A stretch of DNA of 64,000 bases from Prosthecobacter sp. GTDB taxonomy: Bacteria > Verrucomicrobiota > Verrucomicrobiia > Verrucomicrobiales > Verrucomicrobiaceae. The notes below the pieces were generated by a model. It did no database searches. It was not told the DNA's origin and saw only the letters and a list, made by a program, of their open reading frames with translations. The DNA lies in assembly GCA_019186985.1 (NCBI GenBank), contig JABARQ010000023.1, positions 20,548 to 84,547 on the forward strand. Direction: 5' to 3'. Below are positions 4,934 to 50,465 of this stretch, in pieces. Position 1 is the first letter of the stretch. Every line of letters starts with the position of its first letter. The translations under genes and the position numbers were made by a program.

Positions 4934-4970
4934 CACAATTTCAAGGCTGCCAGAAACTGGCGGGCCGGGA

Positions 4971-6470: not shown

Positions 6471-6604
6471 GGCCCCTGCGCTAGCGCGAAAAACCGGGGC
6501 TGGCATGGAAAAAGTTTGCGCCGCCCGCCGCCGTGCCTACCGACTCCCCTGCCTCCTTTTCCGCCGCATCTGCGTAATCCATTCATCCATCCACCCACAC
6601 CTCC

Positions 6605-19214: not shown

Positions 19215-19257
19215 GAGAGAATGGGGCGGACGAACAAAAAACAGGGAGGCCGCCGCA

Positions 19258-20718: not shown

Positions 20719-20769
20719 AGGCCATCTAATCAGCACTCACGCCCCTGTCACGCGGAAAATCACAGCCGC

Positions 20770-21498
20770 TCAGGGGCGGTAGATGCGCGCCTTGCCGGTG
20801 TAGGCGTCGATCTGGATGCAATAGTAGTTCGGGGGGGGCATGGTCGGGGAGTCCACGTTTTGAGACTCGACGAGGGTCATGAAGCTTTCGTTCAGGGGAG
20901 GGATGGTGTAGGCGGTCGCCTGGGCGGCGGCGGTGTTGCCAGGCTGGCCCCTGGTCAGCAGACGGCAGCTGCCGTCGGGGTAGAAACGAAGCGCTGAATA
21001 GTTGACGGAATCCCCCCCCGCACCCGTGCCCGGCTGAAAGACAAAGGTCCCGGAGATGGGCCCCTTGGTCTGGTTGGCCGTGGTCTGCAGCAGGGGTGAC
21101 AGCTGTGACTGGGGTGACAGGACGATGCCTGAGTCAAAGTAATAGGGTTCTGAGATGGCGACAGGATCCGTGCCTGAAGGCGTCTCCACCACCTGATAGG
21201 CATAAAAAAGCTCGGCGGTCGGCCGGTCTGAGTCAGGATTGACGTAACGATAGAACCGCATCTCGACCTCCCGGCTGCGGGCAATGGCCTCCTGCTGGGC
21301 CAGGCTGAGACGATTGAGGAGGCTGTCCCCGGCCGAACTCAGGCGGGTTGAACGGATCACATCCACCAGCGTGGGCGTGGCCAGGGCGACCAGAAGCGCG
21401 ATGATGCCGACCACCGTCAGCATTTCGACGAGGGTGAAACCCGGGGTGGCGAGACGCGTGCGGCTTCGGGCGATGGGGGCGTGCAGGTGCATGACCAT
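20770..21498 (-). CDS. Pseudopilin, Verru_Chthon cassette protein D type (GspH/FimT-like)
   Basis: Pilin-like protein with a prepilin peptidase site PG/FTLVE: the basic leader (LHAPIARSRTRLATPG) is followed by FTLVEMLTVVGIIALLVALATP, whose Glu at +5 is needed for methylation and assembly. The globular part is about 190 residues and is rich in Gly, Ser and Thr, as in GspH and FimT. The start is taken at 21498; ATGs at 21531 and 21492 are also possible, and 21531 would overlap the preceding gene by 13 bases. Two G/C runs of eight bases lie in it (20831-20838 and 21012-21019). It is the last gene of the B-giant-A-C-D unit. The letter name is assigned from length, order and N-terminus. Confidence 0.83.
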   Translation of the reverse strand: MVMHLHAPIARSRTRLATPGFTLVEMLTVVGIIALLVALATPTLVDVIRSTRLSSAGDSLLNRLSLAQQEAIARSREVEMRFYRYVNPDSDRPTAELFYAYQVVETPSGTDPVAISEPYYFDSGIVLSPQSQLSPLLQTTANQTKGPISGTFVFQPGTGAGGDSVNYSALRFYPDGSCRLLTRGQPGNTAAAQATAYTIPPLNESFMTLVESQNVDSPTMPPPNYYCIQIDAYTGKARIYRP

Positions 21499-21518
21499 GA
21501 CAGGGCGGAAAGGTTGGG

Positions 21519-22646
21519 TTAGATGCTCCACTTGGAACCGCGGAGCTGGATCGTGGCGGAAAACACCCGGTAGTTCACCTTGCGCTGCTGAAGCATGGTG
21601 GTGATTTCATTCACCTCGGACTCCAGGTTGTGCGCCTGGGTGAGCTTGGTGCCGATCTCAGAGCCAAGCGGCGGAGTCCCCCCTCCTCCCGCCTGCTGGT
21701 CGAGCATGTCTGCGGAGCGTTCATCAATGGCGACCAAGACAACACGCACCATGGGAGGCAGGAGGTGCTGGGTTCCCTGCGGCGAATCGTTGGTGGGATT
21801 GACGATGGCGCTGGAGTCATAGGTGTAGGCCGGTGCAATCTGGGTCGGACCACTGGTGGACTCGGGCTCGTTGGCCACCAGAGGCTCACGGCGGGGGGAG
21901 ATGATGAGGGCCACGATGTTGTCGGCCACGGGACGCGTGAGGAGCGTCGAAGCCTGCTGGTTGCCGCCGCGGCCTCCGCCATTCGCCGACTGTCCAGCCT
22001 TTTCAAACCAGGTCCTGGGAATCGGCGCCTTGGGGTTGGACGCCACCGTGGCGGACGCTGCATACATGGTGTTGAGCTCCGTCGGCGGGCTGAACTCCAT
22101 GAGGCGGTAGCGGAACTTGCTCTGCCTGTTTTGAATGAACTGGGGCGCCCAGGATTCATCGGAGGAGAACTGAACGAAATAGCCCCTGGCGCACAGCAGC
22201 TTGTCGAGCCCCACATAGGCGGGGGTGTTGGAGACACCCAGCGGAGCCTGGAAAAACACCGCATGGCCCGGCAGCATCGTGTCCCCCCCGGCAACGAGGT
22301 CGGAGGCTCTTCCGCAGACAAAGTGCAGGTCCGAACGCCGGACATAGGTGGTGGGCGCCGCAGTGGTGGCCGCCGCGTCGGCGCTGGCGAGATAGTTGGC
22401 GTCGTAATCGATGTAGGTGTTGAGCGTCGCCTGGCCCAGGTTGCGGGTCAGGATGTCGAAGGCCGTCCTGGCCTCGCGGAACTGGCTGACGCGTGCATTG
22501 GAGGCGGACCAGGTGGACTGCACCTGGCCGATGACCTGGGCGCTGATCAGCAGCAGGATGGTGAGCACGGCGAGCGACACCATGATTTCAACCAGGGTGA
22601 ATCCCGTCCGCAGCTGGCGTTGCGCGATGAAGGGTTTAGCATTCAT
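21519..22646 (-). CDS. Pseudopilin, Verru_Chthon cassette protein C type (GspJ/PilW-like)
   Basis: Pilin-like protein of 375 residues. The short leader MNAKPFIAQRQLRTG is followed by FTLVEIMVSLAVLTILLLIS, a canonical class III signal with cut after Gly. The next segment, ARVSQFREARTAFDILTRNLGQATLN, matches the helix seen in GspJ/PilW-type minor pilins (AFDILTRDL), and the rest is a large beta-rich globular part. It begins 32 bases after the end of protein A and its stop overlaps the region where protein D starts, so the genes are tightly coupled. By analogy it would sit in the tip complex of a pilus or pseudopilus; that is inference. Confidence 0.86.
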   Translation of the reverse strand: MNAKPFIAQRQLRTGFTLVEIMVSLAVLTILLLISAQVIGQVQSTWSASNARVSQFREARTAFDILTRNLGQATLNTYIDYDANYLASADAAATTAAPTTYVRRSDLHFVCGRASDLVAGGDTMLPGHAVFFQAPLGVSNTPAYVGLDKLLCARGYFVQFSSDESWAPQFIQNRQSKFRYRLMEFSPPTELNTMYAASATVASNPKAPIPRTWFEKAGQSANGGGRGGNQQASTLLTRPVADNIVALIISPRREPLVANEPESTSGPTQIAPAYTYDSSAIVNPTNDSPQGTQHLLPPMVRVVLVAIDERSADMLDQQAGGGGTPPLGSEIGTKLTQAHNLESEVNEITTMLQQRKVNYRVFSATIQLRGSKWSI

Positions 22647-22678
22647 GGTGAAGTGAAGGGATGTTTCGTTCAGGATGA

Positions 22679-25600
22679 TCAGGGGGCGAAGCGCTTGGAT
22701 TCGATCACACGGAAGCGGTAATAGCTGTCCAGGGGCGGATGAGCGGTTTCGTCCAGGGGGTCGCCGGTGGTGAAATCAGCCGCCGTGCCGGCCCTGGCGA
22801 GGTCCGTCATGTCCACATAGCGTTCGAGCAGGAACGAACCGCGGTACTCACCGGTGACCTCATCAATTCCAGGCGTGAACTTGTCCACCGCCCAGCCATC
22901 ACTCTCGGAGCCGCGCAAGGCCTTCTTCAGGGTCTGCACCCTCACATGCACGCGGAAGGTGTTCGAACGGGTGGTCAGCTTGGCATAAAGGTTGGAATAA
23001 GGCGCTTCACGCGTGTTGTCCCCCGTGGAGAGATGATTGTTCCAGAAGTTCGCCATGGCATCCTCCCGTCCCCGGATACTGTCGAGTTGATCCTGACTGA
23101 CGTTTTCCCTTGATGGTTCATTGGCACCAGCGACAACGATAGCGGGGTCAGAGGCTGGGATGCCTGGTATAGGGGTTGCGGGGCGATTTCCTGAGGTTGA
23201 AATCCTCGAAGGGATCAGATGCAGCTCACAAATCTGGGAGGCACTGCGGAACAACCCGGACCTGAAGGCGCTCGGCATGCCATCGTTGGCAGTGTCACCT
23301 CCACTCACCCCGGAAGGCCCGTGCCCTTTTTCTGTCACCCCAAAATTGAAGCGCTCCTCAAACTGGCGGAGGGTACCCACAACCCGCCTGCTGGCAGCCT
23401 TGTAGGTCCACCAGGGGCTGTCGGCACTACCATTTTCATTGTTGAACCTGTCCACCACAATCGAGCGGTGCCAGCGGGCTGCCGGGCGCTGTTCGGCTGA
23501 AGGGATGTCACCGCGCACGGCTTCGTACCTGAAGAGGGGAGCGGTCTGTCCAAACGGACCAAACCCAATGCTATTGCTCCTTGCATATGCATGATCCACG
23601 TTAGGCAGCGCGGCAAAGACCTCCGCCTTCATGACGGCATGAAGGGCTGTCGCCCTTCGGATATGGGTGAATGGGAGCATCTGGTAGTTCATGTTCACCT
23701 TGCCAGCCGTGGAGAGGGGTTCGCTGATGGCATAAGGCTCAACCACAGGCATCCAGAAGAGATCCAGGAGGTAATGATCCGGTGGGGTGGCCTGGCCTGG
23801 GTGCCGCGGAAGACCGCCGTTCATCAGCACATGCGGCCGGAACAACAAGTTGGTCCAGGCGCCATGGCCACCGGAAGAAGCATCCGCACCATTGGGGTTG
23901 GAAAAGTACACTCGGCTGGGAAGCGAGCCCATCACGACAGGTGAACTGATCACCCGGTTCGGAGTAAAGAAGGAGCGCCCTGCGGCACCAAACCTGGCAC
24001 CAACCGATGGGGGACGGAAATAGGAAAAGCGGTATTCAACATCTTTTGTCCAGCCGCTGCCCCGGTAAAAACCTACAGCCATGTTGCCTTCATCTGGCTT
24101 GTTGATGAAGGAGCCGACTCGCCCACCTGGGTCGGATTCATCAAAGTCAAAGTATCGTTGTGCAAGCCTCGCTGGCGGCAGACTGTTTGTTACTGGATGT
24201 GCCAGATCTGCGTTCGTGCCGGCGAATGGTGCGTCAGGCATCAGCCCCTCACCAACCCTGACGGTGGTTGGCAGCAGGGCCTTGTCATAATCGACTTTTC
24301 CCATGAGTTGCTTCACAACATTGCCGGAACGATCAAAACCAGGCTCGGAGCCTGCTCCATACGAGGAGAAATTGTGGGCCATGAACGCATTAGGCTCATC
24401 ATAGAGGGGATGGCGGGACCAGTCCTCAGCCTGAACGATAGCCTTGGCAAAGAGAAGGCGTGCATCTCCATGCCCCGGCAGCAACGAACGGACCACATCT
24501 GTTCCCGAATGCAGCGCCATGCTGTTATAGGCCTTCCCCTCCGGATCTGGACCATAACTGATGCGCGCCATGCGCACATTATCCCGATTATCCCTAACTT
24601 CGTAAAGTTTGACACCTTTATAATTGTCGTTGTATTCATAGCCGTAAATCAGAGCACGACTGCCGGGGTATCTCTGACTTCTCCCACCAGCGCCAGGCGC
24701 CTCATACTTGGCTGAGTCACCGTTCACTGTGATCCTTCCCGCAGGTTCGGTAAGCCGACCGGGAAAAATTGTTTGTGACTGACCAGTTCGATTAAAGCGT
24801 CCGAGCGCCCCCCCCCGGTGGAAAGCCCACCAGCGTGGAGCCTGCAATGTAGGATGGGCGAACCTTACCTGATCCGATGAACGAACCCAGCCAAACCTCA
24901 TGCTGGGTTGAGTCACCAAGTCCGGACTTGGCATATTGCCAGTGGGAAAGTTGAAAAAGATGGTTTGGACCCTGTTTCTCTGATCATGCCCATCATAAAT
25001 ATCCAATCGTAGAGGCGATGTAGACCTAAATTGTAGGGGCACATCACTTTGGACTTTAAAAAAGTTAGACACCAGGTCCATATTCACCAACCCTGAATGG
25101 ACCCTGCTCGTGACCGAGTCACTGTAGTTGGAATCAGGTGGCATCTGCCCTATTCCAGGGAGGTTTCTATTGAATGCCAGGCGCCTGAAACTAGCATAAC
25201 CACCCACTTCAGGAGCGCTATCAAGGGTAAAAATGGAATCCGCACTCTTGAGGATAACATCTTCTGACTTGCTAAAGACAGACCTAAACCCTGTCCCGCC
25301 ATTAACTTCTAACTTCTGAAGTTCCTGGGCACGCAGCACAACGGTAAACTCGGGAAAAATGGTGGTATATCCAACAGAGGGGCAGAAAAACTCGAGGTGA
25401 AACATCGCCTGAACTTGTTTTTCATCGGGAGATAAGGGTGGCTCATCCGCTGGCAGAGTGTAGTTCCAGTTCTCTTCCTTGAGTCCTGGGTGATAGTCGG
25501 CGTGCCTGCCACGGTTTTCATCAGTCACCGGACCGCTTTCAGTGCCATAGTATAAAGCTCCATAAGCATTCTTGTTTCTGGTAATTGGGGGGAAGTTTGA

Positions 25601-28075: not shown

Positions 28076-28104
28076 GGGGGGAGGCAATTTCGGGATTTAT
28101 GTCA

Positions 28105-28133
28105 ATTAAATCGAAATCGGAGAAAAATTTCAA
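28105..28133 (-). promoter_or_regulatory. Candidate sigma70-type promoter before protein A
   Basis: On the minus strand TTGAAA (28128-28133) and TTTAAT (28105-28110) are separated by 17 bases, in an AT-rich part of the gap after the giant gene. It lies about 30 bases before the A start. One mismatch in the -10 box and two in the -35 box. Confidence 0.5.
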
Positions 28134-28227
28134 GCCATGAAGTCAATGCACAGTATTTACTTGGTTAATACAAAGGCGGACCAGCGTAGCGCCATCCATG
28201 ACTCGTCTGGCAGAAATCACCGTTTTT

Positions 28228-40200: not shown

Positions 40201-43200
40201 GCGGGCGTCGGTCACATAATATAGCGTGTCCGGCGTCCCTTCAGAGATCGGCGTGACCAGGTTCGTACCTTCCGGATCCGTGGCGATTTGAAAGGTGCCT
40301 CCGCTGGAGTTGACCACATAGTAAGTGGTGTTTGTCAGGAGGCCTCCCGGCAGCACGGGAGTCACCCCCGGAATGGACTTCGTGTTGAAGGTGACCTTCG
40401 ATCCGTTGGGAAGCAGTCCGGTGAAGCGGTTGCCTGAGGAGCTGTAGCTGGTGGACCGGTAATTGTCGATCTTCGCCGCCACCTTCACATTGACCCCGAC
40501 GCTGGTGAGCGTGATGGCGGTGCCGCCAGGCGTGGCAGCCACCTTGAACGTGCTGCCCGTGGACTCCACCACATAGTATTGCGTGTCCGGACGAAGACCG
40601 GCAGGAAGGGTGGTGGCGGCAAAAAGCGGAAAGCTGACGGGGGTTCCATCCGGATAGTTGCCCGTAAAGGTTGAGCCGGACACTGTCGTGGCCGCCCCGA
40701 CGGTTCCCAGCGCATCGTTCTTGGTGATGGCCAGGGTGCCGTTCTGGACGGTTGTCAGACCGGAATACGGGGCCGCCTTGGAAAGCAGCCAGCGACCCGT
40801 GCCCGCCTTGAAGATGCTCGAGGGCTCGGAGGGCGACTTGTCACCCAGCTCGATCTGGAAACGGTTGTCCCCAACGCCAGTTCCGGAAAGGGTCAGCGTG
40901 CGGGGACCTGAATCCTTGAAGGCGATCGGGGTCGTGATGGAGGATGTTCCGGCTACAATGTCCCTGAACTCGGTGCCGAGGGTCACGGTGGCGGCACGGA
41001 TCGTTCCGTTGGCGGCAACCGTCGCACCGTTGGGACCGGTTCCCATGGTGAAAGAGCGGTTGGTCGACTGTGCCACCGACGGTGCAACAATCAGCGTTCC
41101 CTTATCAATGAGCAGAAGTGACGGATCATCTGCTTCAACCCTTCCGAGCACAGAGCTCGTTTCAAAAACACGCCCCAGGGAAGCCACCTCCACCGCCCCC
41201 GCCTGGATTTCCAGGCCGCCGCTGAAGGTGCTGCTGGAATTGTTCAGCCGAAGCGTTCCCGGACCTTGCTTGACCAGCTTCAGGGCAGCCAGATTGCCGC
41301 CGACGGTGAACCCATCATTGAGAACTCCGTTATAAACCTGATTGATATCCAGGTTGAAGAACACGGATGTCGCGCCGCTGATGGAGTCAGGTGCATCCGT
41401 GTTGCTGATGACCGAGCCTTGGACGCTGTTGATTCTCCTGATGGTCTGGCTGATGCCCATGAGATTGACGGAGGTGCCGCCAATGTCCAGGATCAACCCG
41501 CCTGTCCCCCATGCCTGGGCCGAAGCAAGCCTGAGGGTGCCAGAATTCATGACCAGCGGCTCAGTGAAGTTGGAGTCACCACGCCAGGTGTTGCTTCCCA
41601 GGATGGTGATGTCTCCAATGAGCGCCCGGATGGGGGCCGTGAAGTCATTGTTGCCCTCCAGGACGAACCTGCCCCCCTCGCTGAAGATGCCGCCGATGCT
41701 GTTGTTACCGCGAACCACCATCAGGCCTTCGAAACTGCCCTCCGTCTTGATGCCGGCACGGTAGGTGTTGGTGCTGGACGGCGTGCCCAGGATGATGCTG
41801 TTGGTCTGCCTTGGATTGAGCCCGGTGTTGGCAAGAACCGCCAGTTCAAGCACGCCGATGGCGTTGATCGGGTTGGCGATGGTGAAGTTGATCTGCGGCA
41901 CGGAAGCCCCGCCGTCATTGTTGTTGTTAGGAATGGCGGTGCCGATCTCGATGCGCCCGCCGCCCGCCCCGATGGTCAGCCCCGTCTTGCCGTCATTGAG
42001 GCTCAGGTTATAATCCTCAACCGGCGGTGTGCCTGTGGTGACATGCGTGATCCGCAGCGTGCCTCCGTTAATCTGGATCTTGTCCGGAACAAAGGCTTCT
42101 GGCTCCTGGCCCAGCGAACTCAGGATGGACAGCTGCACGATGCCGTTGTTGATGTAGGTCTTGCCGGTGTAGTTGTTGGTACCGCCCATGATCAGCAGGC
42201 CAGCGCCCGATTTCGCAAGGCTGACCGAACCTCCGGAAAAGCGCAGCTGGGAGCTGGTGGGCAGCGCGCCGACAAGCGGAACGCTGATAGTGACCTGGTT
42301 GTTGTTGGTGTTGATGCCCAGGATCCTGGTTCCTTGGGCGACACTTGGCGCAGCAGCCCCGAGGCCGGTAATTTCCATGCCCACGGTCAGGCCGATAACG
42401 TTGTTCATGGTCACGACACTTGAACCCGCCGACACAGCGCCGTTGGTTACGATGTCCGCGAGGAAATCAGTGACCACGGTGCCCAGGGTAAGCTGGGTGG
42501 AGTTGATGATGTTCAGCACCGCTGAATCATTCTTACCCGCCCCGACGGTCAGCGCCCCACCGCCTGAGATGGTTGCCGTACCGGTGTGAACAAGCAATCC
42601 GCCGGACTCAATGCTCAGACGCCTGCCGCTCATGTTCAGCGTCTGCCCCTGCATGTTCAACGAGTTGATGACACGGTTGTCTGACAGCGTCCTGGCCGCC
42701 TGCATCTTGACGTTGTTGCTGGTGCCCCAGCCCGTCTGGTCTCCTGTGTTGTAACCGCTGGCAGCCAGGCGCTTAACGCCGTCCTGGCCGTCAGCGACAT
42801 TGGTATCATAGGTGGCCCACTCATTGTCAATGGTCGCCCACCCTCCCAGGATGCCATCATCAAGCACCGGGGTCTGGCTGAAGAGAATGCGGTTGCGGTT
42901 GATCGCGGCGGTGCTGCCGCCCTCACCAATCGAATTAACCACTGTGGTAATGGATCCACCGTCGTTCTGCCGGCCCAGGAAGTCGATGGTTGCCCCAGGT
43001 TCAACCTTCAGGGAGTCGAAGGTCAGCGTGCTGGTGCCCGAAGTGCCGGCTCGATAGGTCTGCAGCTGGAGCTGACCCTGGCTGAGCAGCAGCTGTCCCA
43101 CGGTCTCCGCGAAGGTGCTGTTGACCATGTTGTTGTGGAAGGTGAAAAGCCCTCCGTTGGACTCCAGCGTCACCGTGTTGCCGATGCGGTTGGAGTTGTT

Positions 43201-46200
43201 GCGGTTGACCAGCGGGCCATTGGCCGGATCAGTCGTGGCGGAGGTCGTCACCTCGTTGCGCAGCTCAATGCCACCCCCCCCCCCGACGCGACCCGCGATG
43301 CTCAACGTCGTCTTTGTTCCGCTGAAGGTATCGTTGACGGAGGTCGACCAGCTAGCGGCATCGGTGGTGGCCAGCCCGCCGTTGCCGAGGGCGAGCGTGC
43401 GCCCCCCTGCCGTGATCAGGCTGCGGATGGTGTCTATGCTTCGGATGTCATTCAAGGCCGGGCTGTCCGCCGCCCGGATCGCCGTCCAGTTCGCGCCGTT
43501 GTCCGTGGACGACAGGATCAGGCCGTTTTCACCAGCGGCCAGAAGACGGGTTCCGGACAGGCCGACAGAATAAAGGTCGCGGCCCGTGCCAGAATTTCTC
43601 ATGCTCCAGGTCGTTCCGTCGGCGGAGACGTAGAGAGCCCCATAATCACCCACGGCGACAAACTGGCTGCCGGTCCAGAACACATCACGCATTTCGGGAA
43701 GGAAAACGATCGGAGGCAGCTCCCCAATGCGGTTGCTGATGCTGGTCACCGTGTTCTGACCGCTGGTCACCCTTCCCGTGAAAACGCCCATCGAGACTGT
43801 CGTGGCGCCGGATGTGGCGTTGAGGGCGGGGGATGTTGAAAGGGTGATCGTGCCCGCCGTGCTGTTCAGATCCGCGATCGTGAAGGTGTTGTTGGCCCAG
43901 CCCGAGGTGCCGTCCGCCGCCCCTGTGATGTAAATCTGCATGTCTTTGGAAATGCCGGCGAAAGATCCGGCCGACACACCCTCGATGATGTTCGAACCAT
44001 TGGTCGTGCTGCCCGTGAAGGTCAGCAGGGGAATGTCTCCCGTCCCGGAGGCCGGCACAGCAAGCGTCACCTGGTTGGTCGCCACGTTGTAGCTGGAGAT
44101 CGTGGTTGCGGAATTGATGAATCCAGGGATGGCGGCCACCGGCCGGCCGTTGACCAGGTGCGCGGAGGCTCCTCCCAGTGTCTGGTTGAACGAACCGAGG
44201 CGAATGTTCGTGATCGTGGTGCTGCCACTCGTCCTGTCGCCATAAAGCACGCCAAATCCAGCGCGTGTGCTCAGGTTGGCCGGGCCGGCCAGAAGGATTC
44301 GCCGTCCGGGTATATCCAGGGTCAGGATGGTCGTCGGGGACGGCAGGGCCGTTCCATGGAGCGCCATGCCCGGCATCAATCCCTTGAAGTCAGTGACCTC
44401 GGTGATGATGGAAGATCCGTTTTTGGACACGCCAAGCAGCGTCTGGATGGGCGTCCCCTGCTCATTGCTGGCAGGATTTGCAACGAGTGTGTTCGTCGCC
44501 GACGCGGACAAAACCATGGAGAAGGCCGCCTCGTTCACCGAGCGGATGGTGGTGCCGGACTGGATGCCTGCGGTCGAGAAGACATACATCCCCGGCCTCA
44601 GGGCGTGCATGCCGCTGACATTGGAGACGGTGGAGCTTCCCAGGGCTGTTGTTCCCTTGAATGCGTCAAAGCTGACGTTGCTGCCGCCGGTCAGCGCATT
44701 GTTGTTCAATGTCATCTGACGCGTGGTGCTGTTAAATCCCAGAATCACGTTCTGCGCATCAGCCAGGGGCGGCGTCTGCCTTGTCCAGCTCAGTCCGGTG
44801 GTCGAACGCGCCAGCAGGCCGTTGCCACCGGCGGTCACCAGCACGCTGCCGGAGGACCATGAGACAGCGTTCAGTGACTCCGTCGAAGCGGGGGATGGCA
44901 GCGGCACCCAGGTGTCCGAGCCCCCTCCCACAGAGCCAAGAACAAGGCCTGACTCACCCACGGCGACCAGGTTGAAGCCGACAAAGAACTCTGCCCCGGG
45001 GAAAGGCCCGAGAGCGTTCTTGGACAGCACGATGGTGCCGGAACCCACCGACTGAATCACCGTGCCCGCAGGAAGGATCCCTGGGGCGGAGACCGGCATG
45101 TTGGCCAGGAGCCCGTCCGTCGAGGACACGGAGGTCACTGTGCTGCCGCCTGCCGAAAAACTGCCCGTCCGCCTCAAGGCCGTCCTTGCGGCAACCAGAG
45201 GTGCCGCTGCCGCCGTCGCCTGAACTGGCTGGGAAAGCTCCAGTGTGTTGGCAGTACTGCTGGAAACGTAGGTTCCGGGTTCAACGATCACACCCCGCGC
45301 AGCCATGCCGGCGGTGAACGAGCCTGCGGAGGTCACGTCCTCCAGGATGGGCGAATTAAGAACGGTTCGTCCTGTAAACACGCTCAGTGGCACCGTAGTG
45401 CCATTGGCCACCGCAGGCAGCGACAGCGTCAGCGTTCCTGCACCAGGATTGATGGCCGTGATGACCGAGCCCGGGGCGATGGAGTTTCCACGCAGAACCA
45501 TGCCAACGACAAGCCCCTGGGTGTTCGTCAGGCCGGTCACTGTCGTGCTGTTCAGGGTGGTGTTGCCCGCCAGGGTGTAAAGGGTGACACCGGCGGAGCT
45601 GGCCGAGGCGATCTGGTTCATGGTGACCCTGCTTGCTGGCCCGTCGAGGGCACTGATGGTTGCCCCCACGGGAATGCCCGCTCCGCTGATGGGCAGGTTG
45701 GTGACCAGCGTTTGCACCGTGCGCACGTTTGAAACGGTCGTGCTTCCCACCCCCACCGAGGTGTTGCCGCGGAAGTATCCGAAGTTCACGTTGGTGGCGG
45801 CTGCCAGGGCGGAGCTGTCAATCACCATGGAGACATCAGCGCCATTGACGGTCACCGAGACAATCCGGGCGTCCGGGGGCGTGGCAAAGCTGTGCACCAG
45901 GGTGCCCGCAGGATAGCTTGTGCCGTTGCTCACACCCGTCACGGTCACATTTCCAACCGTGGTCACACCGGTCAGCGACACGGTTGTTGAAGCCACGGAA
46001 TGTAGGTTCTGGGCAACGCCGCTGTCCTGCTCAGACCAGGCCTCACCAGTGGTCGAAGTCAGCACCCTGCCTCCATGGCCGACCGCGACAAACTTCGCGC
46101 CAGTCCAGCTGAGGCTTCGAAGGGGCTCTTCGGAAGGATCGGAATACACCTGCTCCCAGAGGCTTCCGTTCAAGGACGTGTGGATCGTCCCCCTGGCGGT

Positions 46201-49200
46201 CACGGCGACATACTTGCGCCCGTCGAACACGACATCCGCAAAGTTCAGGGACTCCCCGCGGAACGCACCGTCGGTCTGGTTGGAATAGGTGAAGGTCACG
46301 TCCGTGCCCGCCACAATGTTGACCGCCTTGCTCAGCTCCACCACGCGCGTCAACAGATTCACGGCCACGACGCGGGTGTCCTGGGGGATCTTGCGGTTGG
46401 CCGCCGAGGTCAGGCCCTGCCCCAGCGTCAGAACCGAACCCACGACGACATTGTTGGCGTCATTCAGCGTGATGAACGTGTTGGTGCTGGTGTTGGCCAC
46501 CCTCCTGTTGAGGGTGTAGACGCTGCCGCTGAGCAGCATGGAGGTGTTGGAGAGCGTCACCGGACCGCTGGACTCCAGCACCGAATCCACGAAGGTGGCC
46601 ATGTTGGCCACGCTCAGGGTTGTCCCGCTGACCACAAGGTTGCTGCCCAGCTGGCCGTACAACCCGTCAATCTGCATGCCCCCCACCGAAAGCCCGGCGC
46701 CAATGGTCACACTGCGCGAGAGGCCCGGCACGCTGATGGCCGTAAAGTCATTCCTGACTTCATTCCTGCCCCCCCGAAGGGTTGCCGGACCCGGGAGGAA
46801 GGAGACACTGCCTGAGTCCACTGACAGGTTGTCCAGGATCGTCTCCCCACCGCTGAAGTTCACGACGCCGAGGCCGACCTTGCGGATGTCGGCATCACCC
46901 AGGATGGGGTCGTTGAAGTTCATGACGTTGCCCGCCGCCTGCGCATCCAGCAGGATCGAGGTGCCGGAGGCGGCGCTGATGGTGCTGGCAAAGTTGCCCG
47001 CATTGATCAGCCGGAGCTGGCCTTCGAGCAGCGTAGTCGGACCAGTGTAGGTGATGTTGCCGCCGAAGAGGGTCAGCGCGCCCGTGCCAAGCTTGGTGAG
47101 GCCCAGGGTTCCCGTGCCGCTGCCTCCGGCACGGTTGCGGATGAAGCCGCCCACATAGGAGTCCAGGTTGTTCCCGCCCAGGGTCAGCACGGCATCCGTG
47201 TTCACGGTTTCACCCTCCATGTTTTCGATGATCAGGGCGTTTCCAACATCCACGATGTTGCCGATGGTTTCATCGCCCCCCATGAGCTTGAAATAGGCCC
47301 AGCGGTTGGTCACTCCGTCCGCAAGGATCGTCGCCCCATCCTGGATTTGATCAAGCTGGTCATCCCCCCTGCCCTGAAGCAGCTGAAGAACGGCGAAGCC
47401 TGTGTCACCACGGCTCGCGCTGCCCAGGCGGATGTTGTTGAACGCAGGACCGTTGGTGCTGCCCAGCTCAACCTGGGCGCCGTTGTTGTTGGAGCCCCGG
47501 TTCCACAGCCACAGATCCACGGTGCTGGACTCGGTGACCCCGGTCACGGTGAGGATCGCGTTGCCGCTCGTCACCAGGGATCCTGGCCCTGAAACCCCGC
47601 CGGAGAGGGTCAGGCGTCCCGTGTTGATCCGGGCATTCAGCTGGTTGGCAAGATAAAGCGGCACGCTGATGCTGTCCTGATCCCCCTGCAGCTTCTGCAG
47701 GAAGGACTGCCCGCCGCCGATCGCCCCCATGTCGAAGGCAAGCGTGTTGGTGATGCCGCCGGTGCCGGTTGTCAGGGCAAAGTCCTCGGCATTGATCCAG
47801 TCACCGATTGAAAACGAACCCACCGTGCGCGCCGCATCCAGCGTGATGGTGCTGTTGGCGCCGATGTTGTTGTTGAAATGCACATACGACCCCACACCCC
47901 CAGGGGCCAGCTGAGTCGGGGTCACCACCCCGCCAGGAGCGGCGATGCTGATGGTCGGGTTCAAGGTGTAGCCAGTGCCGGCGTTGGTGACATTGACGGC
48001 GCTCAGGCTTCCATCTGCCGCACGCACCGCCACAGCCGTCGCAGCCACGGCGCCCCCCGCCGTGTTGATCGTCACGGAGCCCACCGTCAGGCCGTCCATC
48101 ACAGGTGTCGCCGTGGCATGAACACCCCCGTTGGCGATGCCGCCCGAAAACGTCACGGTTGGCGCCGCGGAATAGCCGGATCCGGCATAAACCATGTTGA
48201 TGGCGCTCAGGCGTCCTGCGTTGACCGTGGACGTGGCCACGGCATGAGTGACCCCTCCGCTGGTGAAGGTCACCACCGGTGAACTTGTGTATCCCGTGCC
48301 CTGGCTGGTGATCGTCACGCCCACCACGGCTCCATTGGCGTTGACGACGGCCGTGCCGGCCGCACCCGTGCCCCCGCCGCCGACAAATCCCACCGTCGGG
48401 GGCGTCCCCTGCGAGTAACCAACTCCACCATAATTCACCGTCACGCTGCTGACACCCGTGCCAGTCCTGTTTGCGGTGGCAATGGCCCCGGTGACCCCGC
48501 TGCGGCTGAAACGCACCTGAGGAGCGGAGGTGTAGCCCTGCCAGCCATTGGTTCCAATCGTCACTGCGGGAGCGGTCAGATAACCTGCGCCGGGATTGGT
48601 CAGATTGATGGCGCTGAGGCTGTTGCCGGACCTGATGGAAACGGCGGTCGCCGTCCTGACCAGGGGGGCGCCAATGACCACAGTCGGGGCCGAAACATAA
48701 CCCTGTCCGCGCTGAACAAGCGTGAATGAAGCCAGTGAGCCGTCCGGGGCGAGCGTCGCAACGGCCTCCGCCCCGCTGGCACCGCCCAGCGGAAAGGTTG
48801 CCGGTGGGTTGCCGGTGCTGCCCGGCACAAGCACGGAGGTCACGCTGCCATCCTCGATGACCGCATCCAGATAGGAGCCCCCGTTGCCCGTGGCCCCACC
48901 CCCGCTGACATCCACCCGCGGCGCACTCGTGTAACCGGCCCCTGGATTGGTGATCTCCACCTCCGTCAGGCGTCCGTCGACGATCACCGCAGTGCCGGTG
49001 GCGGTGTTGTTCACAAAGCTCACCGCAGGCGATGAACTGTATCCCGAACCACCGCTGATCACCTGGATCGACGTGATCACCCCGCCGGAAACCGTGGCTG
49101 AAACCGAGGCACCGGAACCTCCGCCGCCGGTCAGATTGACCGTCGGAGGCGCGCCATAACCCGATCCGCCGTTCGAGATGTTGAAGCCGGTCACCTGACC

Positions 49201-49803
49201 GCCGCTGACCGTGGCGGTCGCCACCGCTCCCGAGCCGTTGCCACCAACAAAGGTCACGGTCGGGACCGACGTGTAGGCACCGCCTCCGGTGAAGGCGATC
49301 CTTGGCGGCACCGAATATCCTGACCCGGGATCAATGATGTCAAAGCTCGCGACTTCACCCGTGATCGTCACCGTGGGGTTCGCCGTATAGCCGCTGCCCC
49401 CGTTGGTCACCACGATCTGCGAGACTTCACCCGAGCCGTTGATCGTGGCATAAGCACGTGCGCCCACCCCGTTCCCGCCGGTGATGATCACCGAGGGAGG
49501 AACGGTGTATCCGGCCCCCGGGTTTCCAACCGTGATCGCCGTGATCGCGTTGGAGACGCGGGTGACGGTGCCGCTGGTGGCCCTCTGGTTGAGCACCGGC
49601 ACCACGTTGGCCGGACGCATTGGCTGGGCAAAGGACCACGGGCTTCCCGTGAGGTTAAAGTTACCCCAGGAGCCGCCATTCGTGTTCCATGAGCCGTCAA
49701 CAGCGCTTTGGGCGGACACATCCGCCGCAGCCATGAAGACTCCCGCAGCCAGCAGCAGTCCCAGGGCGGCGCGTCTGGCTGAATCTGAAAATTTCAGCTT
49801 CAT
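28228..49803 (-). CDS. Giant secreted mosaic protein with autotransporter-type beta-strand repeats
   Basis: One uninterrupted frame of 7191 residues, over a third of the window. A signal peptide (MKLKFSDSARRAALGLLLAAG onward, cut near residue 31) is followed by about 13 GxGYxxxP repeats (residues 85-625); many autotransporter-associated beta-strand (PATR) units such as GTGALTLFGGNITYTGPTTL; BNR/Ycf48-like segments (VAVGHGGRVLTSTTGEAW); repeated modules with the pattern GMxVxGxGIxxGTxI; five LPxGLxPDTxYYVV modules; seven delta-60 repeats inside PAIAYYD-type repeats; four Ig-like domains; a putative-Ig domain; and a C-terminal region of about 430 residues. No autotransporter beta-barrel, PEP-CTERM or LPxTG sorting end was seen. 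It lies between pilin-like genes, which suggests export or anchoring by them. The length and composition suggest a surface adhesin or matrix protein; function unproven. Confidence 0.9.
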   Translation of the reverse strand: MKLKFSDSARRAALGLLLAAGVFMAAADVSAQSAVDGSWNTNGGSWGNFNLTGSPWSFAQPMRPANVVPVLNQRATSGTVTRVSNAITAITVGNPGAGYTVPPSVIITGGNGVGARAYATINGSGEVSQIVVTNGGSGYTANPTVTITGEVASFDIIDPGSGYSVPPRIAFTGGGAYTSVPTVTFVGGNGSGAVATATVSGGQVTGFNISNGGSGYGAPPTVNLTGGGGSGASVSATVSGGVITSIQVISGGSGYSSSPAVSFVNNTATGTAVIVDGRLTEVEITNPGAGYTSAPRVDVSGGGATGNGGSYLDAVIEDGSVTSVLVPGSTGNPPATFPLGGASGAEAVATLAPDGSLASFTLVQRGQGYVSAPTVVIGAPLVRTATAVSIRSGNSLSAINLTNPGAGYLTAPAVTIGTNGWQGYTSAPQVRFSRSGVTGAIATANRTGTGVSSVTVNYGGVGYSQGTPPTVGFVGGGGTGAAGTAVVNANGAVVGVTITSQGTGYTSSPVVTFTSGGVTHAVATSTVNAGRLSAINMVYAGSGYSAAPTVTFSGGIANGGVHATATPVMDGLTVGSVTINTAGGAVAATAVAVRAADGSLSAVNVTNAGTGYTLNPTISIAAPGGVVTPTQLAPGGVGSYVHFNNNIGANSTITLDAARTVGSFSIGDWINAEDFALTTGTGGITNTLAFDMGAIGGGQSFLQKLQGDQDSISVPLYLANQLNARINTGRLTLSGGVSGPGSLVTSGNAILTVTGVTESSTVDLWLWNRGSNNNGAQVELGSTNGPAFNNIRLGSASRGDTGFAVLQLLQGRGDDQLDQIQDGATILADGVTNRWAYFKLMGGDETIGNIVDVGNALIIENMEGETVNTDAVLTLGGNNLDSYVGGFIRNRAGGSGTGTLGLTKLGTGALTLFGGNITYTGPTTLLEGQLRLINAGNFASTISAASGTSILLDAQAAGNVMNFNDPILGDADIRKVGLGVVNFSGGETILDNLSVDSGSVSFLPGPATLRGGRNEVRNDFTAISVPGLSRSVTIGAGLSVGGMQIDGLYGQLGSNLVVSGTTLSVANMATFVDSVLESSGPVTLSNTSMLLSGSVYTLNRRVANTSTNTFITLNDANNVVVGSVLTLGQGLTSAANRKIPQDTRVVAVNLLTRVVELSKAVNIVAGTDVTFTYSNQTDGAFRGESLNFADVVFDGRKYVAVTARGTIHTSLNGSLWEQVYSDPSEEPLRSLSWTGAKFVAVGHGGRVLTSTTGEAWSEQDSGVAQNLHSVASTTVSLTGVTTVGNVTVTGVSNGTSYPAGTLVHSFATPPDARIVSVTVNGADVSMVIDSSALAAATNVNFGYFRGNTSVGVGSTTVSNVRTVQTLVTNLPISGAGIPVGATISALDGPASRVTMNQIASASSAGVTLYTLAGNTTLNSTTVTGLTNTQGLVVGMVLRGNSIAPGSVITAINPGAGTLTLSLPAVANGTTVPLSVFTGRTVLNSPILEDVTSAGSFTAGMAARGVIVEPGTYVSSSTANTLELSQPVQATAAAAPLVAARTALRRTGSFSAGGSTVTSVSSTDGLLANMPVSAPGILPAGTVIQSVGSGTIVLSKNALGPFPGAEFFVGFNLVAVGESGLVLGSVGGGSDTWVPLPSPASTESLNAVSWSSGSVLVTAGGNGLLARSTTGLSWTRQTPPLADAQNVILGFNSTTRQMTLNNNALTGGSNVSFDAFKGTTALGSSTVSNVSGMHALRPGMYVFSTAGIQSGTTIRSVNEAAFSMVLSASATNTLVANPASNEQGTPIQTLLGVSKNGSSIITEVTDFKGLMPGMALHGTALPSPTTILTLDIPGRRILLAGPANLSTRAGFGVLYGDRTSGSTTITNIRLGSFNQTLGGASAHLVNGRPVAAIPGFINSATTISSYNVATNQVTLAVPASGTGDIPLLTFTGSTTNGSNIIEGVSAGSFAGISKDMQIYITGAADGTSGWANNTFTIADLNSTAGTITLSTSPALNATSGATTVSMGVFTGRVTSGQNTVTSISNRIGELPPIVFLPEMRDVFWTGSQFVAVGDYGALYVSADGTTWSMRNSGTGRDLYSVGLSGTRLLAAGENGLILSSTDNGANWTAIRAADSPALNDIRSIDTIRSLITAGGRTLALGNGGLATTDAASWSTSVNDTFSGTKTTLSIAGRVGGGGGIELRNEVTTSATTDPANGPLVNRNNSNRIGNTVTLESNGGLFTFHNNMVNSTFAETVGQLLLSQGQLQLQTYRAGTSGTSTLTFDSLKVEPGATIDFLGRQNDGGSITTVVNSIGEGGSTAAINRNRILFSQTPVLDDGILGGWATIDNEWATYDTNVADGQDGVKRLAASGYNTGDQTGWGTSNNVKMQAARTLSDNRVINSLNMQGQTLNMSGRRLSIESGGLLVHTGTATISGGGALTVGAGKNDSAVLNIINSTQLTLGTVVTDFLADIVTNGAVSAGSSVVTMNNVIGLTVGMEITGLGAAAPSVAQGTRILGINTNNNQVTISVPLVGALPTSSQLRFSGGSVSLAKSGAGLLIMGGTNNYTGKTYINNGIVQLSILSSLGQEPEAFVPDKIQINGGTLRITHVTTGTPPVEDYNLSLNDGKTGLTIGAGGGRIEIGTAIPNNNNDGGASVPQINFTIANPINAIGVLELAVLANTGLNPRQTNSIILGTPSSTNTYRAGIKTEGSFEGLMVVRGNNSIGGIFSEGGRFVLEGNNDFTAPIRALIGDITILGSNTWRGDSNFTEPLVMNSGTLRLASAQAWGTGGLILDIGGTSVNLMGISQTIRRINSVQGSVISNTDAPDSISGATSVFFNLDINQVYNGVLNDGFTVGGNLAALKLVKQGPGTLRLNNSSSTFSGGLEIQAGAVEVASLGRVFETSSVLGRVEADDPSLLLIDKGTLIVAPSVAQSTNRSFTMGTGPNGATVAANGTIRAATVTLGTEFRDIVAGTSSITTPIAFKDSGPRTLTLSGTGVGDNRFQIELGDKSPSEPSSIFKAGTGRWLLSKAAPYSGLTTVQNGTLAITKNDALGTVGAATTVSGSTFTGNYPDGTPVSFPLFAATTLPAGLRPDTQYYVVESTGSTFKVAATPGGTAITLTSVGVNVKVAAKIDNYRSTSYSSSGNRFTGLLPNGSKVTFNTKSIPGVTPVLPGGLLTNTTYYVVNSSGGTFQIATDPEGTNLVTPISEGTPDTLYYVTDARGNSGAGVNLVSGTLELNNVKYLATEDILFEGGFVSVPANATSSWAGDLFTNAPARITVGANGVLNLGGNLLGYHGLNQEGEGTLIFSGEMLTPSTVASNNREWAVRAGTLILDYGLNNSSKLSDTANLRLGGSRRGGTLILRGGSHEEVVAQTVLEAGASKIFRESGAGTIRLNNLIRSTGSTLYVDGGRIAKVDQANNSNGILGSAGILGAWAIIRDAIVNAYWVIPGSTERSYDVTVDPVTNQVLTAVNHVVTRGSVVRFSSTGDLPGGLMPDTPYFAVDCNGANRRLLLATSMSAGSPRVDLTSAGSGTITMAVEQGFQANAAQDLFTTAEGNGLANGVRVRVKSYGILPQGLLPDTDYYVVRAESLGFRLSTAPNGQPVNITTNGSGAHVIHTQGAERRAGPAALTFSVNQDFFPGSDGNDRVRVAVQHGNTTGPITSTLTGQGTLGDPYIYTVFTTNDFNTTNDLVAFVSGDNVGGLPVSDILKAQLSPSLPSGTLYPDYTRIADNGSYGAPTALANGTFDDGRQDLGWAKNAGLPGNSTTLNDGFIMPYDSYGTGWDSNINSNIVGDLNLAAQRNTFSVRFASQIDATVSLLFNGVHSIRSGGILVSPTVGGNDSTITGTGRLTTENQGNLQNFILQQHNKFGSLVINNSITDRAAFQRSGYLTADLRRYIYLTDLSDLQPGWTVSGTGITSGSVIDQVDAAGGKIILDRNTDNTYRGAINYTFTSPDSSQTIVRQGVYSNPGRRIIAGISNLSATNATGTAGLEVGMTVTGAGVVNPTTIEEILDGHAIRLSRDHDGNYRRADYTFSGGTLGAGSTTRRASTTDTYRRRVIGMVKPSGGGNPVSMVTTTDLYIGMPVRGPGIPFGSTITFIYNESDIEVSTNHFYTGDKRTVTFTPSIGLEKLGSGVVALNGVSDYTGVTFIADGTIRAGKLTDGSVVGSLGASSAASANLVFNGGTLQYVGDSNQTNRGFTVADFARLNIGHEKTEVTFSGAIASGQDRLEKDGPGTLILNGNANLAAIRVMQGKLLLQAVDSNPAPATFSPSNFATGSLTQLVLSGGVLEARGAPEGNVTQTLGTQMVVEAGASKVIATSVAGYDPNNLVDLTPARSMTLNLMGQEELTDVLRYAGGTVHFVENPEEGGGAANIFLMLDTFLRQRILPWATYQATNSLTEGVNHFATVNSLTGAIISAEARYNPDSYLSNPDDWKTARSSARNTSPSEQFDLSFNGTVTGNRYVNVLRYASRVDGSVSINAGQTVELVDGAILVTSAVQDAIKSIIGPGSLTGGAQNAVNSDLILHNYNTSAPFTIGAGIVDRQILAAPSSNPTAGKGSLKAGEVDMKVAGGVDLDFFLMVRPGMEVSGPGIQPGTTVTSVEIVYSRLILSQPALSNQTNQVYTFKDVVNFIQTGIGTTVLSGTNTYSGNTYVHGGVLRLDSANAVPGGIGASGGTSSLIVNGGVIGLGLSDFQRSLGTGVHQIQFTGSGGFAAYGADRVVNIGGAPVSEPLRFGNNGFVPDGASLILGSHDATHKLTFANPIDLGSFSQAVRVQDSPIAVEAELGGALSGLGRLIKFGLGTLRLGVSNDHAGGIEIAEGLLVAANVPNVFGQAVGSVLLGTSLTNTSPEAGIDLIVEGGTIGNSIQVGSVNASAGPWKKGGKVESSQTTTDVGQEMSAVVVSGYPAVAYYDATTQDLKFVRALDARGTAWGVPVTVASRGVTGRHPSLSIINGNPAVTFYDETAGMLLYSRCNDAQGVSWGTPVALLGTSVPVLAVAVQPDGKVLVGGSFTRFDGQPTKPAPKATDAGYDPNNPEYHVRSRLVRLNQDGSVDTTFKAYIMNGEVRSILVLPDDKILIGGTFTTLRQNKTADENNTNTTRNRLARLNADGSLDLALDPNANGDVRVLLKQSDGKIMVGGSFTAISGVGRTRLARLNSNGVLDTSFVSPDIRNNEVRAILPEEVGGVVSSYVIGGSFTSVRGDGNRNRLARIAANGSSVLAFNPDANNVVYDIIGLSSGKFLVGGAFTALSGGNIARTRLARLNNDGTVDETFAQEVNNEVRDMYLQTDGSVLLAGVFTQVGDYQRNFSARLQPDGEVDASFNPDPDYEVRDMTTLADGKIVIGGLFTQVGGQGHQMVGRLQASGTADSGFNARRAIDWGRASSLAFINGAPAIAFQDVANKDVYYVRSTDANGVNWPNPELVEAGGDLGAAISLGMSNIGGDLFSKNDQGNQDTGDDTVFVTGTGNVANVANIGTPAIVFTDATTSSIRYSLALNVNANALTAPLTNWFPSIVVPGTAGRVDDHLSFGIVQGIPAIAYQDKVSQNLKYVRASNVAGFSHNLRDPDTFELFTNIKVSELVLTPAWSAPVIIDPSANVGAFPSLAIVTGLTGSGAALPAVSYYDAANGDLKFAAAADTAGSTWSSPATLVSLQDVGRATNLMMTDGLPAVAYYNVTAGDIDFVVMSKASGYSRIAFTADTTLGGAVQLGGTTILSPAAGATVQLSGLVSGDAGFRLVGQGVLSLLHAANTFGSSLAQPGVTNGPGAAVNGSVIMRSGTLLAGASGALGLGTVELGDAVPREVTVDRATAISITRLGGSFDPEHDGENVTANGPGAFLGVNATIDGRHYGLTATTADSISNRFTGNLANGTEIIFYFSINPNPIQGGVPYFVRDSTGTNFRVSATLNGTAVNIEAAGQDVFYMEASKLSSRILVKDEAEHPERNGIYRVVITTDTLDRSENRINLARDSSMDSVAEMISGSRVHVQAGSSAGKTFFVTGTPQTLNLSAVHWVEDAMNVDISLLASDDDVTLGNGIDINTQGGGVKLTLGAASSVTSGVVDYTGVLTLQNLVQAGQELQNLHLTSSTSTGFGVRLSGVISEADGGTGATKDRLTLIKEGTGVATLAGNNTFTGGITINQGTLLVMNTPSAPTSSGTGSGAVQVNAGAVLGGTGTIGGAVTLAGAVGNKAILRPGDPTSSSASAELLTINQPLTVGAHSVVEFTVGATNLTRLAGNSLSLSTSSSNILVQLAPGYLPEQGKEFDILDISGGINLFGGVSNLLNLLLLPVEKVWDTSKFMTEGKIIAMEDSEPTQVTGHPLSRTVQQGEPVSFTVTYTGTGPVSIQWMRNDADIPGATSATYSIPNARQDHEGVYKVRVMNPVNPTGAISNPATLQVDWPLSFAVNLPATKMGSLGDPVTFRVTMNGEAPISYQWFKGSDPIPGETGPTYTISSVQNADTGTYQVKVIGPFNPAPGLLSQACAFSISLGNAVVLDPPGSQTVLAGDDVVLTAQAGGDNNRRVLQWRRGSTQLFGEDSDTLNVPDITLAQAGEYTFRVDNVNLTTGKAANATSAPAFVVVVENAGRVVPAQVGKSVKLTVNVGAPSKVKPQFRWRKNGIEIAENGFGGRFKGVTTKTLSIDKLELTDADVYTCEVSGAAGTTPVVGGTTHLNVYNQGPALVKTTPPDVGMIGAAYAWKIPVTSDQAPTTELPEPGLVTPQKYEVKGLPPGLKVDATTGWITGRPTAVSKSPSGYPVTIQVSNAVKLTTPEAVAAAKWDTVINIRPLPAGIAGTYAGPVERSDLNQNLGGRFDMTVTSTGTLSGKLTMGGDASRSFAGAFNLQFDNTGALTAAPEAEIFIAATKTAPALTIAFGLDITAPSNLADPPVTVLSTPTITAKTGSVAFEAWRNNFGKSVVAGVARPATEFIGLYNLAFGLEEGDSLIGNDAVPQGSGFASFTVGSNGAYTLAGRTADNEKLTGAAWVGPEGQCFVFQTLYTTKPKGSVLGSFEILKGAVPRDNDISGGFDWVRPANPKSRLYKNGFGLAGMTVPTPVVLEVYGGFYSPTVATGTLFDLDPLNPGPVDILADLLFSEDGTFDDSIPTGGDVDTLTNPNLNGGTPITVRAGNKLDIPFITALTKIAATKTGGLSGSFKLVDGALKRSVSFQGLAVRRLLSAPGAPTRDTDVMGVGYFIIDQKPVGLEKPTTSPQQSGIFIFQDR
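33800..34880 (-). repeat. Seven delta-60 repeats in the giant protein
   Basis: Seven units of about 50-60 residues read like VQPDGKVLVGGSFTRFDG, LPDDKILIGGTFTTL, QSDGKIMVGGSFTAI and so on, each followed by RLARLNxDGxxDxxF. This is the delta-60 beta-propeller repeat first noted in Deltaproteobacteria. The block is embedded between units of a different repeat (PAVAYYDATTQDLKFVRA and relatives). Confidence 0.85.
43274..43284 (-). repeat. Eleven-base G tract in the giant gene
   Basis: The minus strand holds 11 consecutive G that encode part of RVGGGGGIELR near residue 2170. Slippage by one base would stop translation of the remaining 5000 or so residues, so the tract could act as a phase-variation switch. 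Confidence 0.7.
47929..49551 (-). repeat. N-terminal GxGYxxxP repeat block of the giant protein
   Basis: Residues 85-625 contain about 13 degenerate units of 35-45 residues with the core GxGYtsxPxVxfxGG and then an Ala/Thr-rich strand (GAVATATV, ASVSATV). The units are clearly related in protein but have diverged in DNA, so they are not a recent tandem array. Confidence 0.85.
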
Positions 49804-49846
49804 AGTGGGTTCTCAGCTTGAATTTTGAACACTCAGGAACACGGCC

Positions 49847-50377
49847 TCAGGGACGCATCTTTGCCACCAGGCAGGTGAAGCGCTTGACCACGGCGGCGGG
49901 CGGTGCGTTGTCGAAGTTAAAGTCGTTGGACTGCGTGGCGGCGACCTCGATCTTCACCCGCCTCAAGTTCTTGTTGCGCTCGGCGCCGCCCTTGTTGGAC
50001 GGCAGCAGCATGCCCTGGTTGCGTTCAGCGCCTTCGGTCAGTGTAACCCGGGCGACATAGGTCGTCAGCGCAGGACTGAGCGCCTTCAATCCCTGATCAT
50101 CAAACCGCAGCCGGGTTTCGCCATTGTCCAGAAGACCTCCCAGCGAGGCCCAGTCTGAAGACTGCAACTCGCCCACAATCTGATCCACAATGCGGGTTTC
50201 CGCCTGTTCATTCGCCGTCCGACGGGACATTTCCAACCCATGCGGGAGCAATCCCAGGATCGTCACGACCCCAAGGGCCATGATCCCGACGGCCAGCACC
50301 ACCTCAACCAGGGAGAATCCATGCGGGGAAAACGGCTTGAACTGATGGCCGGAAACTGTCGGGATGTTCGCATTCAT
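49847..50377 (-). CDS. Pseudopilin, Verru_Chthon cassette protein B type (GspI/PilV-like)
   Basis: First gene of the five-gene unit, 176 residues from the chosen ATG at 50377 (MNANIPTVSG); an upstream start would read through the candidate promoter and is less likely. A basic leader of about 20 residues ends at HG, followed by FSLVEVVLAVGIMALGVVTILGLLPHG, the class III signal, with Glu at +5 and the VEVVLAVGI pattern typical of PilV/GspI minor pilins. The body is short, again as in PilV/GspI. It is 43 bases upstream of the giant gene. By analogy it starts a pilus tip complex, with C, D and A as the other members. Confidence 0.87.
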   Translation of the reverse strand: MNANIPTVSGHQFKPFSPHGFSLVEVVLAVGIMALGVVTILGLLPHGLEMSRRTANEQAETRIVDQIVGELQSSDWASLGGLLDNGETRLRFDDQGLKALSPALTTYVARVTLTEGAERNQGMLLPSNKGGAERNKNLRRVKIEVAATQSNDFNFDNAPPAAVVKRFTCLVAKMRP

Positions 50378-50435
50378 GACGGGATGAGGTTGGGTATGCG
50401 TTGTTGAATTAGACCTAATTCGAAATTTTGTGTTG

Positions 50436-50465
50436 AGAATACCAAGACGCACCTCGTATCGTCAA
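50436..50465 (-). promoter_or_regulatory. Candidate sigma70-type promoter of the B-giant-A-C-D unit
   Basis: On the minus strand TTGACG (50460-50465) and TATTCT (50436-50441) are 18 bases apart. They match the consensus at five and four positions and lie 59 bases before the B start in a conspicuously AT-rich gap. This suggests the unit has its own promoter and is not merely read through from the histidine kinase gene. Confidence 0.6.

Follow-up and report, generated by a model that had tools for sequence, protein, structure and literature searches.

The locus lies on the minus strand at positions 20770-50377 of the window, by which we mean the whole stretch of 64,000 nucleotides of Prosthecobacter sp. 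DNA that was analysed. Five genes follow one another, namely B, the gene of the giant (7,191 aa), A, C and D, so that the giant gene parts B from A-C-D. A preliminary description of this DNA had reported five genes on one strand, and their coordinates, signals and four families were borne out. The gaps it had given as 43, about 150, 32 and near 0 bases were measured from B to D as 43, 140, 32 and −13 bp. The prepilin signals GFSLVE, GFTLVE and GFTLVE were confirmed in B, C and D, respectively, and the assignment to the Verru_Chthon cassette proteins A-D, which the same description had offered, is now supported by four NCBIfam models that all score above their curated cut-offs within a single cluster. 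The features are collected in Table 1.

Table 1. Features of the cassette-giant locus in window coordinates. Positions of the PATR matches are contig positions minus 20547.
Feature	Position	Strand	Evidence and remarks
B	49847-50452	-	TIGR02598 95.6 bits (cut-off 51.4); GFSLVE; likely start ATG at 50377
Giant, PATR protein	28228-49803	-	ORF, 7,191 aa; homologous giants
Predicted Sec signal peptide of giant	49711-49803	-	about residues 1-31; by eye from translation
PATR/beta-strand repeat span of giant	31444-47103	-	seven TIGR02601 matches
PATR matches 1-4	47011-47103, 42127-42222, 41185-41277, 40723-40815	-	TIGR02601
PATR matches 5-7	37390-37485, 35884-35976, 31444-31536	-	TIGR02601
Delta-60/DUF5122 region of giant	33754-34896	-	residues ~4970-5350; PF17164 191 bits, TIGR02608 131 bits; borders by eye
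Ig-like domains of giant	29854-30936	-	residues ~6290-6650; PF13927, PF07679, PF13895; borders by eye
C-terminal module of giant	28231-29523	-	431 aa; AlphaFold2 pLDDT 86, pTM 0.85
A	22679-28087	-	1,802 aa; TIGR02600 878.3 bits (cut-off 332.3)
C	21519-22646	-	TIGR02599 360.2 bits (cut-off 256.5); GFTLVE
D	20770-21531	-	TIGR02596 111.9 bits (cut-off 70); GFTLVE
guaB (IMP dehydrogenase)	19258-20736	-	PF00478 498 bits; 33 bp after D

Three members of the set, B, C and D, carry a class III prepilin signal with Glu5, and one K-like member, A, is without it, the absence of Glu5 being the mark of a K-like member in the available text of PMC10191384 and PMC7541494. The N-terminal motif of the window A, RG-LALIIVLS, has no Glu at mature position +5, and none of the 62 A proteins compared has Glu5, as judged from the motif in 60 of them and by eye in L086 and L094. 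Across the loci read, a GFxLxE-type motif was present in 45 of 46 B, 51 of 54 C and 47 of 49 D proteins. Resemblance of the four proteins to Gsp-type models was below cut-off and N-terminal throughout: A weakly resembled GspK (26.1 bits against a cut-off of 130, N-terminus only), B resembled PilV/GspI below the curated cut-off, and C and D gave 30.5 bits with the GspJ model and 34.4 bits with the GspH model, both sub-cut-off. Judged by sequence, the cassette resembles a single minor-pilin set of the H-I-J-K type in which A is K-like and B, C and D are Glu5 prepilins. The A proteins compared measured 1,220-1,841 residues. A structural model of A (residues 1-1121) was of middling confidence (pLDDT 72, pTM 0.58), with a long N-terminal helix at residues 18-79, and gave no useful match against the PDB. 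Two tandem A genes were seen before B-C-D at L171 (9950-18443) and L176 (9890-18849).

A consensus scan found no terminator-like sites on the minus strand in the gaps between the genes, and the counts of such sites were no higher than in shuffled sequence; a promoter-like site at 50465-50436 lies 59 bp before the ATG of B in the same scan. On the downstream side guaB is followed by guaA, and we think of guaB as a conserved flank outside the export unit. A plus-strand ORF opposite guaB (19213-20709) had no Pfam match. The gene immediately before B, which runs in the same direction, encodes a PAS-type histidine kinase of 974 aa (50571-53495). A DUF7133-type protein is encoded on the other strand at 55169-58843.

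In the giant, the predicted signal peptide is followed by the PATR/TIGR02601 repeats, the delta-60/DUF5122 region, as many as four Ig domains and the 431-residue C-terminal module. The C-terminus is common to 17 proteins of 5,708-7,609 aa, the window's own included, and one of 7,193 aa on another contig is 100% identical to the giant there; on these grounds the long frame is not an accident of assembly. Among Pfam hits with E up to 1, neither a PilY1/PilC domain nor an autotransporter barrel was found in the giant, and it bears no PEP-CTERM tail (TIGR02595). The C-terminal module was predicted by AlphaFold2 as three runs of eight strands, which would form three 8-stranded barrels. It had no Pfam match with E up to 1, and the corresponding part of a relative (L105) had no NCBIfam match. 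By pattern, a PEP-CTERM-type tail was present on 28 of 37 in-genus giants and on none of the nine window-type giants; TIGR02595 itself matched the giants of L053, L068 and L046, the last a PATR protein of 2,482 residues. The giants hence have two alternative C-termini, newly described here: a PEP-CTERM-type tail or the triple-barrel module.

The home genome (5.9 Mb, 55 contigs, 96% complete) carries the module well beyond this locus. At E up to 0.001 a module profile gave 54 matches, spread over 44 open frames, two of which, at the beginning of C14 and of C50, appear to be a single sequence. Where its position was read (37 of the 44 frames, many of them partial, 7 of the 37 with HMMER filters off), the module ended 35 residues or fewer from the stop in 35 of 37, both exceptions falling in L263. 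One carrier is a subtilase with a P-domain and Ig/He_PIG domains before the module, and homologues of this carrier show varied Pfam domains; a second carrier scanned has a He_PIG domain in the same place. A small carrier of 485 aa occurs at L260. Standing as it does behind varied exported domains, this stretch of about 420 residues is, on sequence grounds, a candidate sorting module. Across the 56 genomes searched at E up to 1e-10, with about 32 candidates per genome scored, at least 14-33 matches were found among the candidates in all 10 genomes with a class III (window-type) A and none in all 19 genomes with a class I A, which have the PEP-CTERM form at the guaB-linked locus. Since classes I and III are probably two clades, this contrast may reflect a single event. 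Among the candidates scored in other in-genus genomes, matches numbered at least 31 in G024 and at least 25 in G034, whereas G021 and G025 had none. Outside the genus, matches occurred in 4 of the 21 remaining genomes of the order (G043 at least 13, G047 at least 9, G038 and G041 at least 1 each). No A was found in G003 (93% complete) or G020 (68% complete), which have at least 17 and at least 12 module matches, respectively, and the module thus works without the cassette.

The home genome contains only two A genes, compared with 43 module-bearing frames besides the giant, and 43 of the 44 module frames are not cassette neighbours. The second cassette, on C16, is a contiguous A-B-C-D set, and no PATR was seen on C16 among the 60 matches listed, from 150 scored of 174 candidates. 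At least seven PATR frames occur in the genome; for the six outside the window, no A-D match was found in the 20-40 kb read around each. A second giant of 8,033 aa (L037/L038, on C1) matches the Ig and C-terminal part of the window giant (33% over 1,014 aa) and has no cassette beside it. Type IV filament parts lie elsewhere in the genome, with 7 secretin matches, 13 ATPase matches over cut-off and 14 platform-domain matches, none of them on the window's contig. Two exosortases were also found.

To follow the pairing among relatives we used A as the marker. Of 56 genomes, the home genome among them, 52 gave a match to A, 45 of these over the cut-off; several of the sub-cut-off matches cover the N-terminus only. 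The loci read were 60 A places picked by hand, mostly full length, together with the two at home; partial A places, at least one long place within the genus (G018:C9) and a number of places in the order's other families stayed outside this selection. Within the genus this gave 52 distinct A loci from 30 genomes, two of them lacking upstream DNA. A pair was counted when the closest frame upstream of A on its strand encoded a PATR protein and lay no more than 1.5 kb away. By this definition a PATR protein lay directly upstream of A in 37 of 50 in-genus loci and in 28 of 30 genomes, with a length of 1,921-13,369 aa where complete. The other 13 loci (L065, L067, L069, L070, L098, L005, L072, L073, L075, L092, L094, L096 and L099) had no upstream PATR protein, nor did any of the 10 loci fetched from two other families of the order. 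A genome scan supplied 80 further named loci, of which 8 were set aside for a short or split A and 35 repeated loci already in the set. Among the remaining 37, which bring the total to 99 loci, a PATR protein lay upstream in 5 and downstream of the cassette only in 5, and none was shown in 27; these 27 include three with no data, four with the giant's C-terminal module upstream and one with split PATR frames. Whether other cassettes also sit beside a large repeat protein, the check proposed in the preliminary description, is thus answered positively for most of the genus, and negatively for the home cassette on C16 and for the 10 loci fetched from other families. As a general rule the pairing is not supported: the C16 cassette is without a giant, six of seven PATR frames at home have no cassette in the stretches read, and whole clades of cassettes are without a giant.

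Some individual loci deserve mention. At L096 (2549-15015) two module-bearing proteins of 1,626 and 1,204 aa stand directly before A, with no PATR, and the second overlaps A by 4 bp. The window-type A of L099 has an unrelated enzyme-like frame upstream, while a module-bearing frame of 7,452 residues occurs at another place in that genome. L140 (7153-19169) has a class I cassette and a guaB-like gene, with a topoisomerase-like gene (by eye) in the place of the giant, which was apparently lost here while the cassette was retained. Two neighbouring frames of 434 and 399 aa at L007 (995-4001) have a nearly identical N-terminus and are likely a recent tandem duplication. Window-type operons were found in Brevifollis gellanilyticus NBRC 108608 (G005, L089/L108), and the genus-mate contigs include a match to a Prosthecobacter debontii MAG (G010, L085/L107).

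We sorted the loci into four classes of our own. In class I (18 loci) a giant of 10,134-13,369 residues (10 complete) is followed by A-B-C-D. Class III, the window type, has B, a giant of 5,620-7,756 residues (7 complete) and A-C-D in nine loci with a giant; B was upstream of the giant in 7 of the 7 read past the giant, window included, L090 and L091 running off their contigs and standing outside this count. Class II comprises seven loci with giants of 2,786-7,309 residues (5 complete). In class IV, 2 of 8 cassettes have a PATR protein (1,921 and 2,205 residues), whose gene in each case overlaps A by 4 bp, a stop-start overlap that suggests translational coupling. By our own repeat profile, 16 class I giants with more than 5,500 residues read contained 19-31 repeats, compared with 7 in the window giant. 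A guaB match adjoins the cassette at 14 of the 18 class I loci and, the window aside, at 6 of the 8 loci of class III, some of the misses being explained by contig ends and simple frame picking; in 19 relatives with both genes called (L047-L091), guaB lies 23-115 bp after D in the same direction. A housekeeping gene is in this way found downstream of a surface operon. On the other side, a DUF7133-type protein precedes both the class I giant of L047 and the class III unit of L085, and each of the 10 complete class I giants has a frame of 1,132-1,245 residues before it. From these flanks, and from the window's own DUF7133-type protein on the other strand, classes I and III likely occupy one chromosomal place.

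The history of the pairing was followed on a FastTree phylogeny of 99 A proteins (1,042 columns, without branch supports). L110, L111, L112 and L162, with the C-terminal module upstream, and L120, whose PATR frames are split in the draft, were scored as giant present, L096 as none, and L023, L082, L109, L125 and L179 as no data. The giant neighbour required 10 changes on this tree, whereas 500 shuffles averaged 30.9 changes and never needed fewer than 24. The test mainly tells us that the pairing is inherited with the A clade, and the pairing may go back to few events.

A precedent for such a unit comes from type IV pili. In the available text of PMC7541494, Myxococcus xanthus has three clusters, each of four minor pilins and PilY1, GspK and PilX are without Glu5, and the authors suggest that PilY1 is an analogue of type II substrates; the available text of a review (PMC10191384) places the H-I-J-K set at the tip, where cargo is met. 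Our pattern fits a tip set of minor pilins that moves together with the gene of its cargo, and we accordingly suggest that the giant is loaded by A-D onto a machine shared with other functions of the cell. We give close to an even chance, on its lower side, to the reading in which A-D form a dedicated tip complex, predicted to recognise the giant in the periplasm and to push it through a secretin with a motor encoded elsewhere. The giant would enter the periplasm by Sec. At the tip, A would take the K-like role, B the I-like, C the J-like and D the H-like one, and the enlarged A would cap the tip and hold the cargo. A narrow beta-solenoid body is expected for PATR-type repeats, and in that form the giant could pass the secretin lengthwise. 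The motor and the outer-membrane secretin would be supplied from elsewhere in the genome by a shared type IV filament machine. Once outside, the C-terminal module (or PEP-CTERM processing in most relatives) would anchor the giant at the cell surface, and there the protein would serve as a long adhesive fibre. Overall, a pilus tip would be put to a use like that in type II secretion, each giant cargo having a tip set of its own; we infer all four elements, namely the export step, the tip, which machine is used and the function as an adhesin. The tip-complex reading of the preliminary description thus gains from the H-I-J-K-like set, the recurrent pairing and the motors and secretins elsewhere, and loses its generality. 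This export is opposed most strongly by cassettes that lack a giant, by giants that lack a cassette and by module carriers in genomes in which no cassette was found. Bulky fusions of PilY1 and PilW did not support pilus function in M. xanthus (PMC7541494, available text), a warning for any giant placed at a tip.

These same observations lend weight to a reading in which giant and cassette are mere neighbours. The cassette would then be a general pilus or pseudopilus, and the giant, exported by another route that is exosortase-linked or served by the module, would be co-expressed with it for attachment. The PATR and module frames at home that are not beside a cassette, the module in G003 and the many cassettes without a giant all speak for it. 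It does not readily account for a pairing that holds in several sub-clades despite different C-termini, spacing and gene order, for the two PATR genes that overlap A, or for other lineages in which large PATR proteins lie on the other side of the cassette, and we hold it to be unlikely. An adhesin in the manner of PilY1, which would stay capped on A-D at the tip of an extended type IV pilus without being released, would share the operon logic of FimU-PilV-PilW-PilX-PilY1 in the available text of PMC7541494 and PMC10191384. Pfam annotates the delta-60 region as a beta-propeller, and several cassettes per genome could give several tips. However, no PilY1/PilC domain is among the Pfam hits with E up to 1, the PEP-CTERM-type tails or the widespread module suggest that the giant has its own fixation, and for a tip protein it would be extremely large. 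Such a display is quite unlikely in our judgement. A type V autotransporter independent of the pilins is disfavoured and highly improbable: PATR, the passenger-associated transport repeat, is named from autotransporter passengers, but no barrel of that kind was among the Pfam hits with E up to 1, and the C-terminus is predicted as the three runs of strands or, in relatives, is a PEP-CTERM tail.

Compared with the type IVa FimU-PilV-PilW-PilX-PilY1 operons, the tip complex proposed here has in common the clustering of four H/I/J/K minor pilins with a large exported non-pilin, the K/X member without Glu5 and several clusters per genome; it differs in a PATR giant, of 1,921-13,369 aa where complete, in which no PilY1 domain was found, and in a K-like protein of 1,220-1,841 aa. 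With the type II pseudopilus it shares, by weak profile resemblance, the same four pilin kinds of GspH-I-J-K, whereas the cassette locus has no ATPase, platform or secretin of its own and the presumed cargo gene sits inside the tip set. PEP-CTERM was first met in Verrucomicrobium spinosum, according to the available text of PMC1569441. The giants of the sister operons resemble PEP-CTERM/exosortase proteins in their PEP-CTERM-type tails beside guaB, whereas the window giant ends in the triple-barrel module. Omnitrophota and other PVC giants are likewise very large predicted surface proteins, whereas the giant here is tied to a minor-pilin set; the available portions of reports on Akkermansia (PMC4960237), Omnitrophota (PMC10066038) and PVC giants (PMC12057145) made no mention of such a pairing. 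Our literature search found no published account of it.

A broader form of the proposal, verrucomicrobial export with one tip per cargo, is possible though on balance doubtful. Each giant of about 2,000-13,000 residues would have a private A-D set, one member of which has 1,200-1,840 residues, and would use a shared machine, its end being finished by exosortase or by a second, previously undescribed sorting module of three small beta-barrels that in some lineages is spread over dozens of exported proteins. The names of the Verru_Chthon cassette families carry no role, and a frequent giant neighbour and two C-terminal types are described for them here; four families known only by cassette letters thereby gain a testable role. 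As B. gellanilyticus NBRC 108608 carries the window-type operon, the idea is testable in culture. The locus also exposes a C-terminal module without Pfam match in dozens of frames of one genome, a subtilase included, and it offers a possible answer to the question of how diderm bacteria carry proteins as long as 13,000 residues through two membranes.
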